The notes under the pieces were generated by a model that made no database searches, was not told where the DNA came from, and saw nothing but the letters and a program-made list of their open reading frames with translations. A DNA stretch of 64,000 bases from Halorussus salinus (GTDB lineage Archaea > Halobacteriota > Halobacteria > Halobacteriales > Haladaptataceae): the NCBI RefSeq assembly GCF_004765815.2, contig NZ_SBIS02000014.1:62001-126000 (forward strand). The letters run 5' to 3'. Made by a program: the position numbers and the translations under genes. Positions 50,888 through 55,645 of the stretch are shown in pieces; the first letter of the stretch is position 1; each line of letters starts with the position of its first letter.

Positions 50888-51080
50888 TCGGTCGGAGAAG
50901 GAATTTCTTTGCTCCGGGGATGAACAAGTCGCTGTGAAGTTCGAACTGGGTGCGGACGCCGCCGGAGCGGCGTTCGCGGTGGTGCGAGCCAGCGACAGGC
51001 GAGCATGGCTCGAAAGTGTTCCAGAGGCACTGTGGTCTCCGCGGCAGTCTAACTTGTCCGGAGACTCGGTGGTCGATACG
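50888..51080. other. Spacer before the iteron array
   Basis: This GC-rich stretch has no convincing gene. It separates the secreted-protein operon from the partition module. Confidence 0.5.
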
Positions 51081-51095
51081 TATCTATAGAATAAA

Positions 51096-51168
51096 TATTT
51101 CAGCCAGTAATCTGAGATAGATACCTTAGAGATAAATCTTAGATAGACATCGTAGACAGCTTAGTTAG
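51096..51168. repeat. Iteron block A (13-bp period, degenerate)
   Basis: Eight-base boxes begin at 51096, 51109, 51122, 51135, 51148 and 51161, exactly 13 bases apart. The best are TACCTTAG (51122) and AATCTTAG (51135). They are degenerate forms of the TATCTTAG core of blocks B and C. Confidence 0.6.
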
Positions 51169-51297
51169 AAGTATTATTTACCGTCTATAGCGAGGCGGGA
51201 AGCGACAATCCGCGGGCCGAATCGGTTCCTACGAGTAAGGTACGCGGTCGTCCGAATCCATCTCGGTTCGGGAGCTTCCAAAAGCATCCCAGACAAT

Positions 51298-51344
51298 TAT
51301 CTTAGATATTTATCTTAGGCTCTTATCTTAGACGTTTATCTTAT
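51298..51344. repeat. Iteron block B (four TATCTTAG boxes, 13-bp period)
   Basis: TATCTTAG begins at 51298, 51311 and 51324, and TATCTTAT at 51337; all steps are exactly 13 bases. An inverted copy (TTAAGATA) is at 51356-51363. Strict spacing indicates cooperative binding by one protein, as in plasmid centromeres or iterons. Confidence 0.85.
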
Positions 51345-51451
51345 GTGAGTAGATGTTAAGATATGGTCGCAGAGCGGAGTTATCAGTCAAACGCACGAGT
51401 CAACCGGAGATGTAAGTCAAACACTGGCCCCAGATAGAAATCAAAGAACAG

Positions 51452-51524
51452 CGTCTTAGACTTGTATCTTAGATTTATGTCTTAGACAAGTATCTTAGCC
51501 ACCTAACTTACGTCTCTAACTTAG
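51452..51524. repeat. Iteron block C (six boxes, 13-bp period)
   Basis: Boxes begin at 51452, 51465, 51478, 51491, 51504 and 51517 (YRTCTTAG or TAACTTAG forms), every step being 13 bases, and a weak seventh lies at 51530. The block ends about 90 bases before the ParA start. AGTCAAAC/AGTCAACC boxes at 51385 and 51398 are also 13 apart. Confidence 0.85.
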
Positions 51525-51612
51525 AAAAGTAACACAGATAACAGTCATACGTGTCTTTCTTAGCAACCTTGTCTGACGAACTTTCATATCGGAGAAGGAC
51601 ACAGGCGTAGGT

Positions 51613-52488
51613 ATGCTGTCGTACACCGTCTACAGCGAGGCTGGCGGCGTCGGAAAGTCCACACTCGCCGCGAACCTCGCCGTCGCACACGCTCGCGCCG
51701 GTTTAGACGTTCTCGTGGTTCCGCTCGACCCGCAGGACGGCGACCTCAGCCGACTCCTCGGCGTGGACGACGAGCGCGCCGACGCTGACGTGGACAGCCT
51801 CGTTCGCCACATCATCGAGAGTCCGAAAGGTCCCTTCGAGGAACTCGTTCGAACCACGGAGGGCGTCGATGTCGTTCCGGAACACAACAACCTCTCGGAC
51901 CTGCCGGGCCACCTCGACCGCGAGCAGTCGAAGGCCGAACAGCTCGGGGACGCGTACAACATCTACGCGCAACTCCATCGCGTGCTAGACGAGGGCGAGG
52001 TCGGGAGCGAGTACGACGTTCTCATCTGTGACCCACCCGCTACCGAATCCGACCACCTCTACAACGCCATCTACGCGACGCGGAACCTCGTCATCCCCGT
52101 CGAGCCGTCGGCGAAGGGTCGGGCGTCGGTCGAAGGACTCCAGAACCTCGCGACGAACTTCGCCGAGCAGTTGGGCATTGACGTGGGCGTCTTGGCCGCC
52201 GTACCGAACGGCGTGAAGAACACGAGCGACCAGCGAGAGATGTTACGGGACATCGAGTTCACGACGCCCGAGACCATCGGCGACCGAACGTCGCTGATGG
52301 AAGGCTGCTGGAAACAGCAGTGTTCGGCATTCGAGTACGTCCGCGAGCATCGTGACCGGCGGCGCGACTACGAGGTCGAGACGCTGGCGCAACTGGACCG
52401 AATCGCGCGCCACTTGGAGTCGCAGGTCGGCGTGGACGCACCGCACCCGCCCGAGCCGGGCGCACTGAAACGCGAGGAGCCAGCATGA
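51613..52488 (+). CDS. ParA/SegA-type partition ATPase
   Basis: The product is 291 residues. The deviant Walker A is SEAGGVGKSTLAAN (8-21) with the ParA-type signature Gly and Lys. Asp residues in VVPLDPQDGDLSRLLG and LICDPPATESDHLYNA form the A' and B motifs. No N-terminal DNA-binding domain is present, as in small plasmid ParA/SegA. Such ATPases move replicons using a partner bound to centromere repeats. TATA-like CATATC lies about 27 bases upstream. The iteron array upstream and the overlapping partner gene (ATGA) support a complete partition locus. Confidence 0.9.
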   Translation: MLSYTVYSEAGGVGKSTLAANLAVAHARAGLDVLVVPLDPQDGDLSRLLGVDDERADADVDSLVRHIIESPKGPFEELVRTTEGVDVVPEHNNLSDLPGHLDREQSKAEQLGDAYNIYAQLHRVLDEGEVGSEYDVLICDPPATESDHLYNAIYATRNLVIPVEPSAKGRASVEGLQNLATNFAEQLGIDVGVLAAVPNGVKNTSDQREMLRDIEFTTPETIGDRTSLMEGCWKQQCSAFEYVREHRDRRRDYEVETLAQLDRIARHLESQVGVDAPHPPEPGALKREEPA

Positions 52489-53264
52489 ACGGGTTCAAAG
52501 ACGGCGCGTCGGCGGACAGTCCGTTCGGCGATACGACGGCGGAAGACGAAGCCGGGGACGACGGTGGGGAAGTGTCGTCGGAGGCTGAGGAACCGGACGG
52601 TGAGACGCGGACCGAAGAGAACGAGCCGGACGCCGAAGAGAACGAGCCGGATGCCAAGGAGAACGAGCCGGATGCCGAGGAGAACGGCCGTCTTACCGAG
52701 GAGAGCGACCCGAACGCCGAGAGAAGTGAGACGGATGACGGAGCGGATTCAACGGAGATAGCGGCGACAGCGAGGGAGTCAGCGACGGCGGTTGAAGAAT
52801 CGGCGGCGGGCGAAGAACCAGTCACGACCGAAGAGTCAGCCACGACCGAGCCGAGGGAGACGACGACCTCGGTGGAGGCGAGTAGCACAGGAGAAACAGT
52901 AACTTCGGAGGAGCCAGTGGATTCGGAGGAGCCAGTGGATTCGGAGAAGCCAACAGATTCGGAGGGGCCAGCAGGTGCGGAAGAGCCGACAGATTCCGAA
53001 GAAGCTGCTGGAGCTTCGATAGGTGGGAGCCTGCCGTGGATTTACCAGCGCGCGAGCATCACGGACGGCCGGGAGAAGACGGTCCAACTGCATCTGCGGT
53101 CGGCGACGCTGGACGAGCAGCGACGGGGCCTCGGCGAGATAGAGCGCCTCCTCGGCGAGTCGGTGAAGAAAGCGGACTTGCGGGAAGCTGCGTTCCTCGT
53201 CGGTCTCAGCCATCTCGGCGAAGTCGCCGGGACGCTCCGGGAGTGGGGCTACGATTTCGAGTAA
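52485..53264 (+). CDS. Acidic-tailed probable partition partner (centromere-binding candidate)
   Basis: The product is 259 residues, overlapping ParA by four bases. Residues 1-175 are disordered and extremely acidic, built from repeats of EENEPDA and SEEPVD/SEEP type. Residues about 178-259 form a compact helical domain (SLPWIYQRASITDGREKTVQ..., LREAAFLVGLSHLGEVAGTL). Repeats in the DNA (about 52616-52690 and 52900-52960) suggest slippage growth. No ParB/SegB homology is recognised; the role is inferred from its place downstream of ParA. The acidic arm may stimulate or block the ATPase or mimic DNA. Confidence 0.75.
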   Translation: MNGFKDGASADSPFGDTTAEDEAGDDGGEVSSEAEEPDGETRTEENEPDAEENEPDAKENEPDAEENGRLTEESDPNAERSETDDGADSTEIAATARESATAVEESAAGEEPVTTEESATTEPRETTTSVEASSTGETVTSEEPVDSEEPVDSEKPTDSEGPAGAEEPTDSEEAAGASIGGSLPWIYQRASITDGREKTVQLHLRSATLDEQRRGLGEIERLLGESVKKADLREAAFLVGLSHLGEVAGTLREWGYDFE

Positions 53265-53441: not shown

Positions 53442-53452
53442 ATGGAACCCCC

Positions 53453-53475
53453 ACACCCCGTGTGCGAGATGAAAT
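53453..53475 (-). promoter_or_regulatory. Origin recognition box 1 (inverted)
   Basis: On the minus strand it reads ATTTCATCTCGCACACGGGG then TGT, identical to the consensus box. It faces ORB 2 across the AT-rich element. Confidence 0.85.
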
Positions 53476-53594
53476 CGGTAGAGGAGTGGGGAGGGGTCGG
53501 TCGTCATCGACGGCCGGGATAGACGCGGAAATGGCGTTTTTACGGAGAAAAGCGTCGGTGACCATAATTAGAACCGGTGAGAGGGGTGATTTGA

Positions 53595-53645
53595 AGGACT
53601 GTATTAATATAGAAATCTTTATATATGTGTCTCTTAAACTGAATC
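53595..53645. other. AT-rich duplex-unwinding element of origin 1
   Basis: This stretch (TATTAATATAGAAATC... TTTATATATG) is the most AT-rich part between the facing ORBs 1 and 2, the expected place for strand opening by Orc1/Cdc6 and MCM loading. Confidence 0.7.
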
Positions 53646-53659
53646 CGTACTGTACTTAC

Positions 53660-53694
53660 AGTATCACGAAACGTAAACAACGTGTCGTGATACT
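53660..53694. repeat. Inverted repeat beside the unwinding element
   Basis: AGTATCACGA (53660-53669) and TCGTGATACT (53685-53694) are perfect ten-base arms with a 15-base loop. Confidence 0.7.
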
Positions 53695-53830
53695 AACTCA
53701 TTCCGGCTCTCGATAATTCTACGTGTATTTTGCGGTCGTAACTCGTCTCTATCGGAAAATCGCTGGTTTTAGCCGCTCTACCGTCTTCACGACACCCCGT
53801 CTCCTCTCTCGAACCTCCACCCTATCGAGG

Positions 53831-53853
53831 ATTTCATCTCGCACACGGGGTGT
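53831..53853 (+). promoter_or_regulatory. Origin recognition box 2
   Basis: TTTCATCTCGCACACGGGG plus TGT, exact consensus. It continues into TGGGGG, giving the G-rich end typical of ORBs. Confidence 0.85.
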
Positions 53854-54102
53854 GGGGGTCGAACGAAACTATCCTGTACGACTTTCTTCGACTAACTTTC
53901 CTCGTGACTTGCTTCCACATTTCGATCTAACTTCTTTCCACTCGACTTCTGCTCGACTTCCGCTCAAATTCTACACCGTCACTCCTTCCACCTGACCGCT
54001 ACTGAACTCTATTCGATCGCTGACCGGCCTTCAACTGGGCGCTGACTAAACTCGACAGACCTGTCTTATCCGAATCGTCTAACCCCTCTCGTTCCTTCAC
54101 GA

Positions 54103-54125
54103 ATTTCATCTTGCACACGGAGGGT
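54103..54125 (+). promoter_or_regulatory. Origin recognition box 3 (variant)
   Basis: TTTCATCTTGCACACGG then AGGGT; two changes from consensus. Confidence 0.75.
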
Positions 54126-54133
54126 CACTCTCT

Positions 54134-54156
54134 ATTTCATCTCGCACACGGGGTGT
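54134..54156 (+). promoter_or_regulatory. Origin recognition box 4
   Basis: Exact consensus (TTTCATCTCGCACACGGGG then TGT), 31 bases after box 3, about three helical turns. Confidence 0.85.
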
Positions 54157-54240
54157 GTCTCCTCTATTTGACTTCGCCCGCGGTCCGACGACTCCCTTCG
54201 AAACCAACCACAAAGCGCCTTTACTGCCTGAATGCGGCGA

Positions 54241-54263
54241 ATTTAATCTCGCACACGGTACCC
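54241..54263 (+). promoter_or_regulatory. Origin recognition box 5 at the orc1/cdc6 promoter
   Basis: TTTAATCTCGCACACGG then TACCC. It lies directly before the TATA-like ACTATTTACC (54267-54276) of the orc gene, so Orc1/Cdc6 binding could autoregulate. Confidence 0.75.
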
Positions 54264-54298
54264 ACAACTATTTACCGAATGGACTACACCCCGATAAC

Positions 54299-55645
54299 AT
54301 GGCCGACGGCGACGACGACCAGTCTCTTTCCCAGTCGATCAAAGGGCGTCTGCAACAAGGCGTTCAGAACTCCGTGTTCCGAGAGAAGGGGCTCCTCGAC
54401 CCCGACGCCGTCATCGACGAGGACCGAATCGTCGGTCGTGACGAGCAGTTGGACGACATCATCACCTACCTCCGGCCAGCGGTTCAGGGCAACCGTCCGC
54501 CGAACATGCTCCTGTACGGCCCGTCGGGGACCGGGAAGTCGCTCATCATCAACGCGGTCTGCCAGCAGGTGCTGGAACTGGCCAACGCTCAAGGCGACCA
54601 GTTCGGCGTCATCAAGATCAACTGCCAGACCATCAAATCCCACGACCGCGCGGTGTACCGCCTCGTGGAGAACGCCGCGACCGAGGCCGGAGTCGGCGTC
54701 GGCATCCCCGAGAGCGGTATCTCGACCGACCAGAAGCTCAACCGATTCTACGAGGTCCTGAGCCACCACTTCGACTCGGTCATCATCATCTTAGACGAGG
54801 TGGACCTGCTGGTCGGCCGACAGCGCGACCCGAACGACGAACCGGCCTACTCGAAACTGCTGTATCAACTCTCGCGAGCCTCCCAGCTCGGCCGCATCGA
54901 CGGTCACGTCTCGGTCGCCGCGCTCACGAACGACCCGCGATTCATGGAGGACTTGGACGGGCGCGCGGAGAGTTCGTTCAATCCCCAAGACGTGGTCTTC
55001 CCGGACTACGACGCCAACCAGTTGCAGGCGATTCTGGAGCGCCGACGCGACGCCTATCAGGAGGGCGTCCTCGAAGACGGTATCATCCCACTGAGTGCGG
55101 CGTTCGCGGCCCAAGACCACGGCGACGCCCGGAAAGCTATCGACCTCTTCCGGAAGGCCGGGGAGATAGCCGACCGCCGAGGAGAGGAGACCGTCTGTGA
55201 AGAACACGTCCGGGACGCCCAAGAGGAGGCCGAGCGCGACCGCACCCTGACCCAGATGCAGGGACTCTCGACCCAGAAGAAGCTCTCGCTGTACGCGACC
55301 GCCAGCGTCGCCGTCCACTCCCAGCGAAACCTGAACGCGGTGCCCAGCACCGTCGCGTACCGGGTCTACCAGTACATCACGGACCTGCTGGACGCCGACG
55401 AGAAATCGCGTGACTCGTATCTCCGGTACATGAGCGAGGCCGAGACCTACAACTTCGTCACGTCGGAGAAGCGCGGTCGCGGGTACGGAAGCGGCGTCCA
55501 CAAGGAGTACACGTTCATCGACGACCCGGAAGTCGTCGCCGAGACCCTACAGGCTGACATCCGACTCGAAGAAGTCGAACGCGACGAGAACCTCATCGAA
55601 TCGGTCGTCAACTCCCAGATTGCGGACTTCTTCGACGGGGAGTAA
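54299..55645 (+). CDS. Orc1/Cdc6 replication initiator 1
   Basis: The product is 448 residues. AAA+ motifs are Walker A YGPSGTGKSLI (about 73-83) and Walker B VIIILDEVDLL (161-171), with sensor regions after. The C-terminal part (about 310-448) is the winged-helix DNA-binding domain that contacts ORBs. The ATG at 54299 has TATA-like TATTTACC 26 bases upstream. It binds the flanking boxes, opens the origin and recruits MCM. Nine boxes of one type surround this gene alone, so this is its cognate origin. Confidence 0.95.
   Translation: MADGDDDQSLSQSIKGRLQQGVQNSVFREKGLLDPDAVIDEDRIVGRDEQLDDIITYLRPAVQGNRPPNMLLYGPSGTGKSLIINAVCQQVLELANAQGDQFGVIKINCQTIKSHDRAVYRLVENAATEAGVGVGIPESGISTDQKLNRFYEVLSHHFDSVIIILDEVDLLVGRQRDPNDEPAYSKLLYQLSRASQLGRIDGHVSVAALTNDPRFMEDLDGRAESSFNPQDVVFPDYDANQLQAILERRRDAYQEGVLEDGIIPLSAAFAAQDHGDARKAIDLFRKAGEIADRRGEETVCEEHVRDAQEEAERDRTLTQMQGLSTQKKLSLYATASVAVHSQRNLNAVPSTVAYRVYQYITDLLDADEKSRDSYLRYMSEAETYNFVTSEKRGRGYGSGVHKEYTFIDDPEVVAETLQADIRLEEVERDENLIESVVNSQIADFFDGE

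Follow-up and report, generated by a model that had tools for sequence, protein, structure and literature searches.

A box array with a fixed 13-bp step upstream of a haloarchaeal parA and its partner gene: a probable plasmid centromere

The window examined here (the whole stretch of Halorussus salinus DNA that was analysed, 64,000 nucleotides in length) carries, in this order, an array of short boxes, a parA gene, the gene of its partner, a replication origin marked by an inverted pair of ORBs, and orc1/cdc6. The parA product (51613..52488, forward strand; 291 aa) is a Walker-type ATPase that begins directly with its P-loop, so that an N-terminal HTH cannot be accommodated; an additional domain for reading DNA is also absent. 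Its domain matches are AAA_31/CbiA, and its nearest PDB matches are Soj-type ParAs. The P-loop (SEAGGVGKST, residues 8-17) is atypical in that the signature lysine is absent, and the same is found throughout the family: the lysine of the deviant Walker A signature (KGGxxK[S/T]) is replaced by A or S in all 131 members (SEAGG in 126, SESGG in 5), whereas the control ParAs, L004 and L005, carry KGG. K15 and K168 are invariant in 130 aligned ParAs; that K168 stands in for the signature lysine is offered as a lead only.

The partner gene (52485..53264, forward strand), whose start overlaps the parA stop (ATGA), encodes a protein of 259 aa that we propose to be the centromere-binding protein. It has an N-terminal MNGFKDGA, a long acidic linker and a C-terminal domain (53037..53261, forward strand) in which the extended segment TVQLHLR is followed by three helices; DNA binding and dimerisation are predicted for this domain, and its function is inferred. 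Family members share a conserved N-terminal MTG[FML]KxG and, at the C-terminus, a conserved domain of ~75 residues that includes near-invariant positions; the acidic linker between the two is variable. The linker in the window (52485-53000) exceeds that of most relatives by ~120 aa and includes the acidic repeats ENEPDAE and DSEEPV. Sequence searches found no relatives of the partner in Pfam, NCBIfam or the PDB, and SegB was not among the matches of a profile search of the PDB (E <= 10), which does not exclude a structural match. AlphaFold models of two partner classes consist of an extended segment and three helices (domain model pLDDT 78), as might be expected of a ribbon-helix-helix monomer with an additional helix; this fold is inferred from the models and was not confirmed by structure searches, for Foldseek returned no significant match of the domain models to the PDB or a viral library. 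Weak Foldseek matches to TCP domains were set aside. The partner domain occurs in 29 of 295 sampled genomes of the phylum, every one of which belongs to the same order as the window, and in Halobacterium salinarum R1 (pHS2) and Haloferax mediterranei (pHM132) the array is present and the partner is annotated as a 'hypothetical protein'.

Upstream of parA (51061-51612) lie TATCTTAG-like boxes in three blocks, all on the forward strand, within each of which the boxes follow one another in exact 13-bp steps. Block 1 (51096..51158) is degraded and holds five boxes, at 51096, 51109, 51122, 51135 and 51148; block 2 (51298..51347) holds four, at 51298 (a perfect site, TATCTTAGATA), 51311, 51324 and 51337, with an additional poor box at 51285. 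Block 3 (51452..51563), which adjoins the parA promoter, has seven boxes in unbroken 13-bp steps (51452-51537; starts 51452 to 51530) and one further in-register box at 51556, with poor matches at 51439 and 51543. The initial annotation had counted six, four and six boxes: the four of block 2 stand, block 1 has five plus a poor sixth at 51161, and block 3 is longer than six. It had also described exact 13-bp steps throughout, which holds inside the blocks but not between them, as the three registers differ; its distance of about 90 bases from the array to ParA was roughly right (50 bp from the end of the last box to the ATG, ~76 bp from the end of the unbroken run). The likely parA promoter, TGTCTGACGAACTTTCATAT (51570..51589, forward strand), is a BRE/TATA-like element centred ~27 bp before the ATG, a position that fits a leaderless mRNA; its function is inferred, and it is conserved in box classes A and B (defined below). 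Directly behind block 1 stands a relic of a second parA 5' end (51171..51204, forward strand), which reads VLFTVYSEAGS (compare MLSYTVYSEAGG of ParA) and has 84% DNA identity over 25 nt to 51625-51649. That block 1 precedes such a relic suggests that the par locus was duplicated or underwent recombination at some time in the past.

The existence of the array is beyond doubt statistically. In 5,000 rounds of dinucleotide-preserving shuffling the mean number of box pairs at 13-bp spacing was 0.04 and the maximum 2, against 12 observed; boxes number 19 against a shuffle mean of 4.8, and identity at lag 13 is 0.43 against 0.255 +/- 0.019. It is also unique in the 4.75-Mb genome, where a scan for two-box patterns with <=1 mismatch (single sites were not included) placed 9 of 9 hits at the array locus and none elsewhere. 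The full site, derived from 42 relatives of the same box class, is the 11-bp near-palindrome TATCTnAGATA (r = 0.92 against its own reverse complement). Each 13-bp step corresponds to 446 degrees (13 bp x 34.3 degrees), an advance of 86 degrees per box; intrinsic curvature was rejected as the purpose of the array because boxes spaced in this way do not keep phase with the helix. The winding of a binding protein around the DNA, as first envisaged, is geometry only and has not been shown.

The same rhythm recurs at nearly every locus of the gene pair examined in related haloarchaea. Of 146 genomes sampled from the order, 81 contain relatives of the ParA; relatives are also found on 184 PLSDB plasmids (the genera listed are haloarchaeal) and at 80 further named loci. 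Of 112 loci, 82 have 13 as the best period ahead of parA and 27 have 26; the three exceptions are L004 and L005, unrelated ParAs that belong to other families and come from the same genome, and L058, where 9 and 13 are tied. Once the two unrelated loci are set aside, 13 or 26 bp is the best period for 109 of the 110 close haloarchaeal relatives; among 604 control segments, 13 comes out best in 3.8%. Among distant ParAs (43-57% identity) 13 or 26 is again best in 19 of 20 loci, the remaining one, L119, having no clear period. A search for the array in other haloarchaea, which the initial annotation had called for, thus finds a 13- or 26-bp period as the best one in nearly all of ~130 related loci. 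In 110 loci the partner domain is encoded 3' of parA, mostly with the 4-nt ATGA overlap, and in 20 of the 20 distant loci; no partner was detectable at L020. The array is, then, general to the parA-partner pair across related haloarchaeal loci and not peculiar to the window. All-pair box distances peak at 13, 26, 39, 52 and 65. A weaker second series, at 13k-4 and 13k+4 (L037-L116), is unexplained; classes A and B show it, class C less distinctly.

An array that belongs to a parA-partner pair could be a centromere, as initially proposed, or could be an operator only, at which the partner or another regulator acts in autoregulation of the two genes, the centromere being elsewhere or absent. Block 3 abuts the promoter, the phase of the array to the ATG is identical in 39 of 49 class B loci, and the partner proteins of type Ib systems double as repressors (PMC5016525), all of which an operator would accommodate; yet the number of boxes, up to 31 in several blocks reaching ~480 bp upstream, far exceeds the needs of an operator, the genome has no other array of such boxes, and known type Ib arrays have both roles. 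We consider a purely regulatory array improbable, if not to be dismissed, and prefer an array that is centromere and operator at once.

In contrast to the step, the letters of the boxes vary by subgroup (TATCTnAGATA, TGTTCATTA, GTTWCAAAC, TTGAACC and others). Motif finding per partner class gave the box taTCTtAGata for class A (partner strand QLHL), tgTTCAtta for class B (PLFL) and GtTaCAAac for class C (TFFVH). Over all loci, box distance correlates with partner distance (0.54) and with ParA distance (0.55) alike, and the partial correlations (0.25 and 0.28) fail to separate the two, so loci at which the partner appears to have been swapped were used instead. At L113, L114 and L116 (Haloarcula) and L102 (Haloglomus) the ParA is closest to class B (71-72%), the strand segment of the partner differs from that of class B, and the boxes are TTGAACC-like and GTTTAAnCAGCCA-like. 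Likewise, at ParA distances of 0.20-0.30 the mean box distance is 0.35-0.38 where partners are alike and 0.65 where partner distance exceeds 0.55. Because a parA of the TTCATT group has different boxes when it stands beside a different partner, the box letters appear to follow the partner, a conclusion drawn from sequence comparison and few independent swaps: with the correlations equal, the case rests on about two such events and on a ParA that has no domain with which to read DNA letters, which favours the partner as reader. Recognition of the array by ParA itself, the partner only modulating ParA, would fit the finding that box distance tracks ParA distance as well as partner distance across all loci, but it sits poorly with a ParA that starts at its P-loop and with similar ParAs having different boxes beside different partners; we give it very little credence compared with reading by the partner.

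Several individual loci deserve mention. The genome of the window has two parA-partner loci, on contigs C9 and C7, whose boxes are not alike. The second, with boxes AGTGTTACTGG, occurs as two copies with identical scores on one contig, 199,725 bp apart (G000:C7:6702-7547 and 206427-207272; L002 and L003), either because a circular plasmid was assembled past its own end, which is probably the case, or through a real duplication. In Haloarcula sebkhae, L039 and L114 belong to different box classes and lie ~16 kb apart on one contig (NZ_BMPD01000006.1), as might result from the fusion of two plasmids. A MAG titled 'Mollicutes bacterium', which is mislabelled or contaminated, contains a par locus of typical haloarchaeal form (L064, PULR01000035.1).

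Replication in the window is served by an origin that is not part of the array: an inverted ORB pair (53447-53476 and 53830-53859) encloses an AT-rich stretch (53447..53859), followed by the Orc1/Cdc6 initiator gene (54155..55645, forward strand) with further ORB copies at 54103, 54134, 54241, 55683, 55777, 55849 and 55908. These ORB repeats differ from the array boxes in sequence and in place, and a cdc6-like gene lies within the ~4-kb flanks examined at 13 of 80 family loci and is missing from those of the other 67; the array is therefore tied to the par genes and independent of the replication origin. That the boxes are replication iterons, binding an initiator or controlling copy number, might be suggested by the ~2 kb that separate the array locus from the orc1/cdc6 origin and by the similar look of the iterons of bacterial plasmids, but the origin has repeats of its own, most loci have no cdc6 nearby, and the boxes vary with the partner of ParA. 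We accordingly hold this explanation to be highly implausible, and the term 'iteron', under which the array was originally described, is the wrong word if a replication repeat is meant.

The centromere reading is thereby supported: the array belongs to the parA-partner pair, its letters appear to follow the partner, and the origin is independent of it. We hypothesize, with good though incomplete confidence, that the array serves as both centromere and operator in a two-gene haloarchaeal plasmid partition system that works like type Ib ParABS. A dimer of the partner would bind one near-palindromic box via the strand of its C-terminal domain, and neighbouring dimers, 13 bp and a turn of ~86 degrees apart, would assemble along the array into a helical partition complex. 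This complex may contact ParA by way of the partner's conserved MTGxKxG peptide, at the N-terminus, and its flexible acidic linker, and by stimulating the ParA ATPase may cause sister plasmids to be moved apart over the nucleoid; it would also repress the promoter adjoining block 3. Binding and dimerisation of the partner, its fold, ATPase stimulation, repression and plasmid segregation are all inferred, in the absence of binding, ATPase or stability data. The observations on which the hypothesis builds are the array, the 13-bp rule across haloarchaea, the link to the partner, the independence of the origin and the ParA without its signature lysine, the last of which also counts against it, as this residue is considered essential in other ParAs.

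The 13-bp rhythm precedes the same gene pair, with differing letters, at nearly all of ~130 loci, which suggests a type of plasmid centromere not described before. In the literature on haloarchaeal and archaeal plasmid partition we found no description of such a system, nor any described partition system for large haloarchaeal plasmids, in keeping with the original view that it is undescribed; subscription papers were outside our scope and absence is unproven. What constitutes a centromere on archaeal chromosomes and plasmids has been named as an unanswered question (PMC5120986). Whether these loci form a haloarchaea-wide class of their own, with a lysine-less ParA (K168 perhaps substituting), a partner family that has no known relatives, and a step that alone is fixed while the letters drift freely, we regard as evenly balanced. 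If so, the free letters of the boxes would be the plasmid's 'address', and many plasmids could coexist in one cell. In the model strains that carry pHS2 and pHM132, a site, a protein likely to bind it and a motor can now be named. A step that is fixed while the letters are free allows partition-complex geometry and plasmid incompatibility to be probed directly, and with a partition ParA that lacks the signature lysine one can ask whether this residue is indispensable.

Among known systems, haloarchaeal orc1/cdc6 origins resemble the array in having repeats near replicon maintenance genes, and both are found in the window (PMC3528665); ORBs, however, have a G-string and flank orc1/cdc6, and the array consists of other repeats 2-4 kb away. 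SegAB of the Sulfolobales likewise pairs an archaeal ParA with a downstream DNA-binding partner (binding being inferred here) and has an odd-centre palindromic site, TCTAGA-S-TCTAGA (PMC12284271), but SegB sites occur singly and are dispersed over the chromosome rather than arrayed at the locus, and a PDB search with the partner profile retrieved no SegB. The AspA-ParB-ParA system of pNOB8 is also an archaeal plasmid partition system with a dedicated centromere-binding protein, as is proposed here; it has three proteins, in contrast to two here, with no ParB domain. McdA of the beta-cyanobacterial type 1 carboxysome system is another ParA-family ATPase without the signature lysine (SGGQGKT; PMC9178275; PMC8262871), but it positions carboxysomes and not DNA, has no array, and acts with a different kind of protein, McdB.

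The closest likeness is to type Ib, whose centromeres are upstream repeat arrays, coated by small dimeric proteins and acting as operators too, and whose binding proteins are also repressors (PMC5016525). As in pSM19035 (delta-omega-parS), where at least four contiguous repeats are needed (PMC9499535), and TP228 (ParF-ParG-parH), a short ParA without HTH has a small dedicated partner gene directly downstream, and an array of short repeats with a fixed step lies upstream in multi-repeat blocks, overlapping or adjoining the promoter (PMC9499535, PMC5016525). The system described here differs in its step of 13 bp instead of 7 and its near-palindromic, odd-centre boxes, in a partner with an acidic linker and no detectable sequence relative, in a ParA without the signature lysine, and in its restriction, in our sample, to haloarchaea. 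With the signature lysine, a defining feature of ParA-type systems, missing and the fold of the partner open, we view it as a variant that works like type Ib and not as a member of that type.
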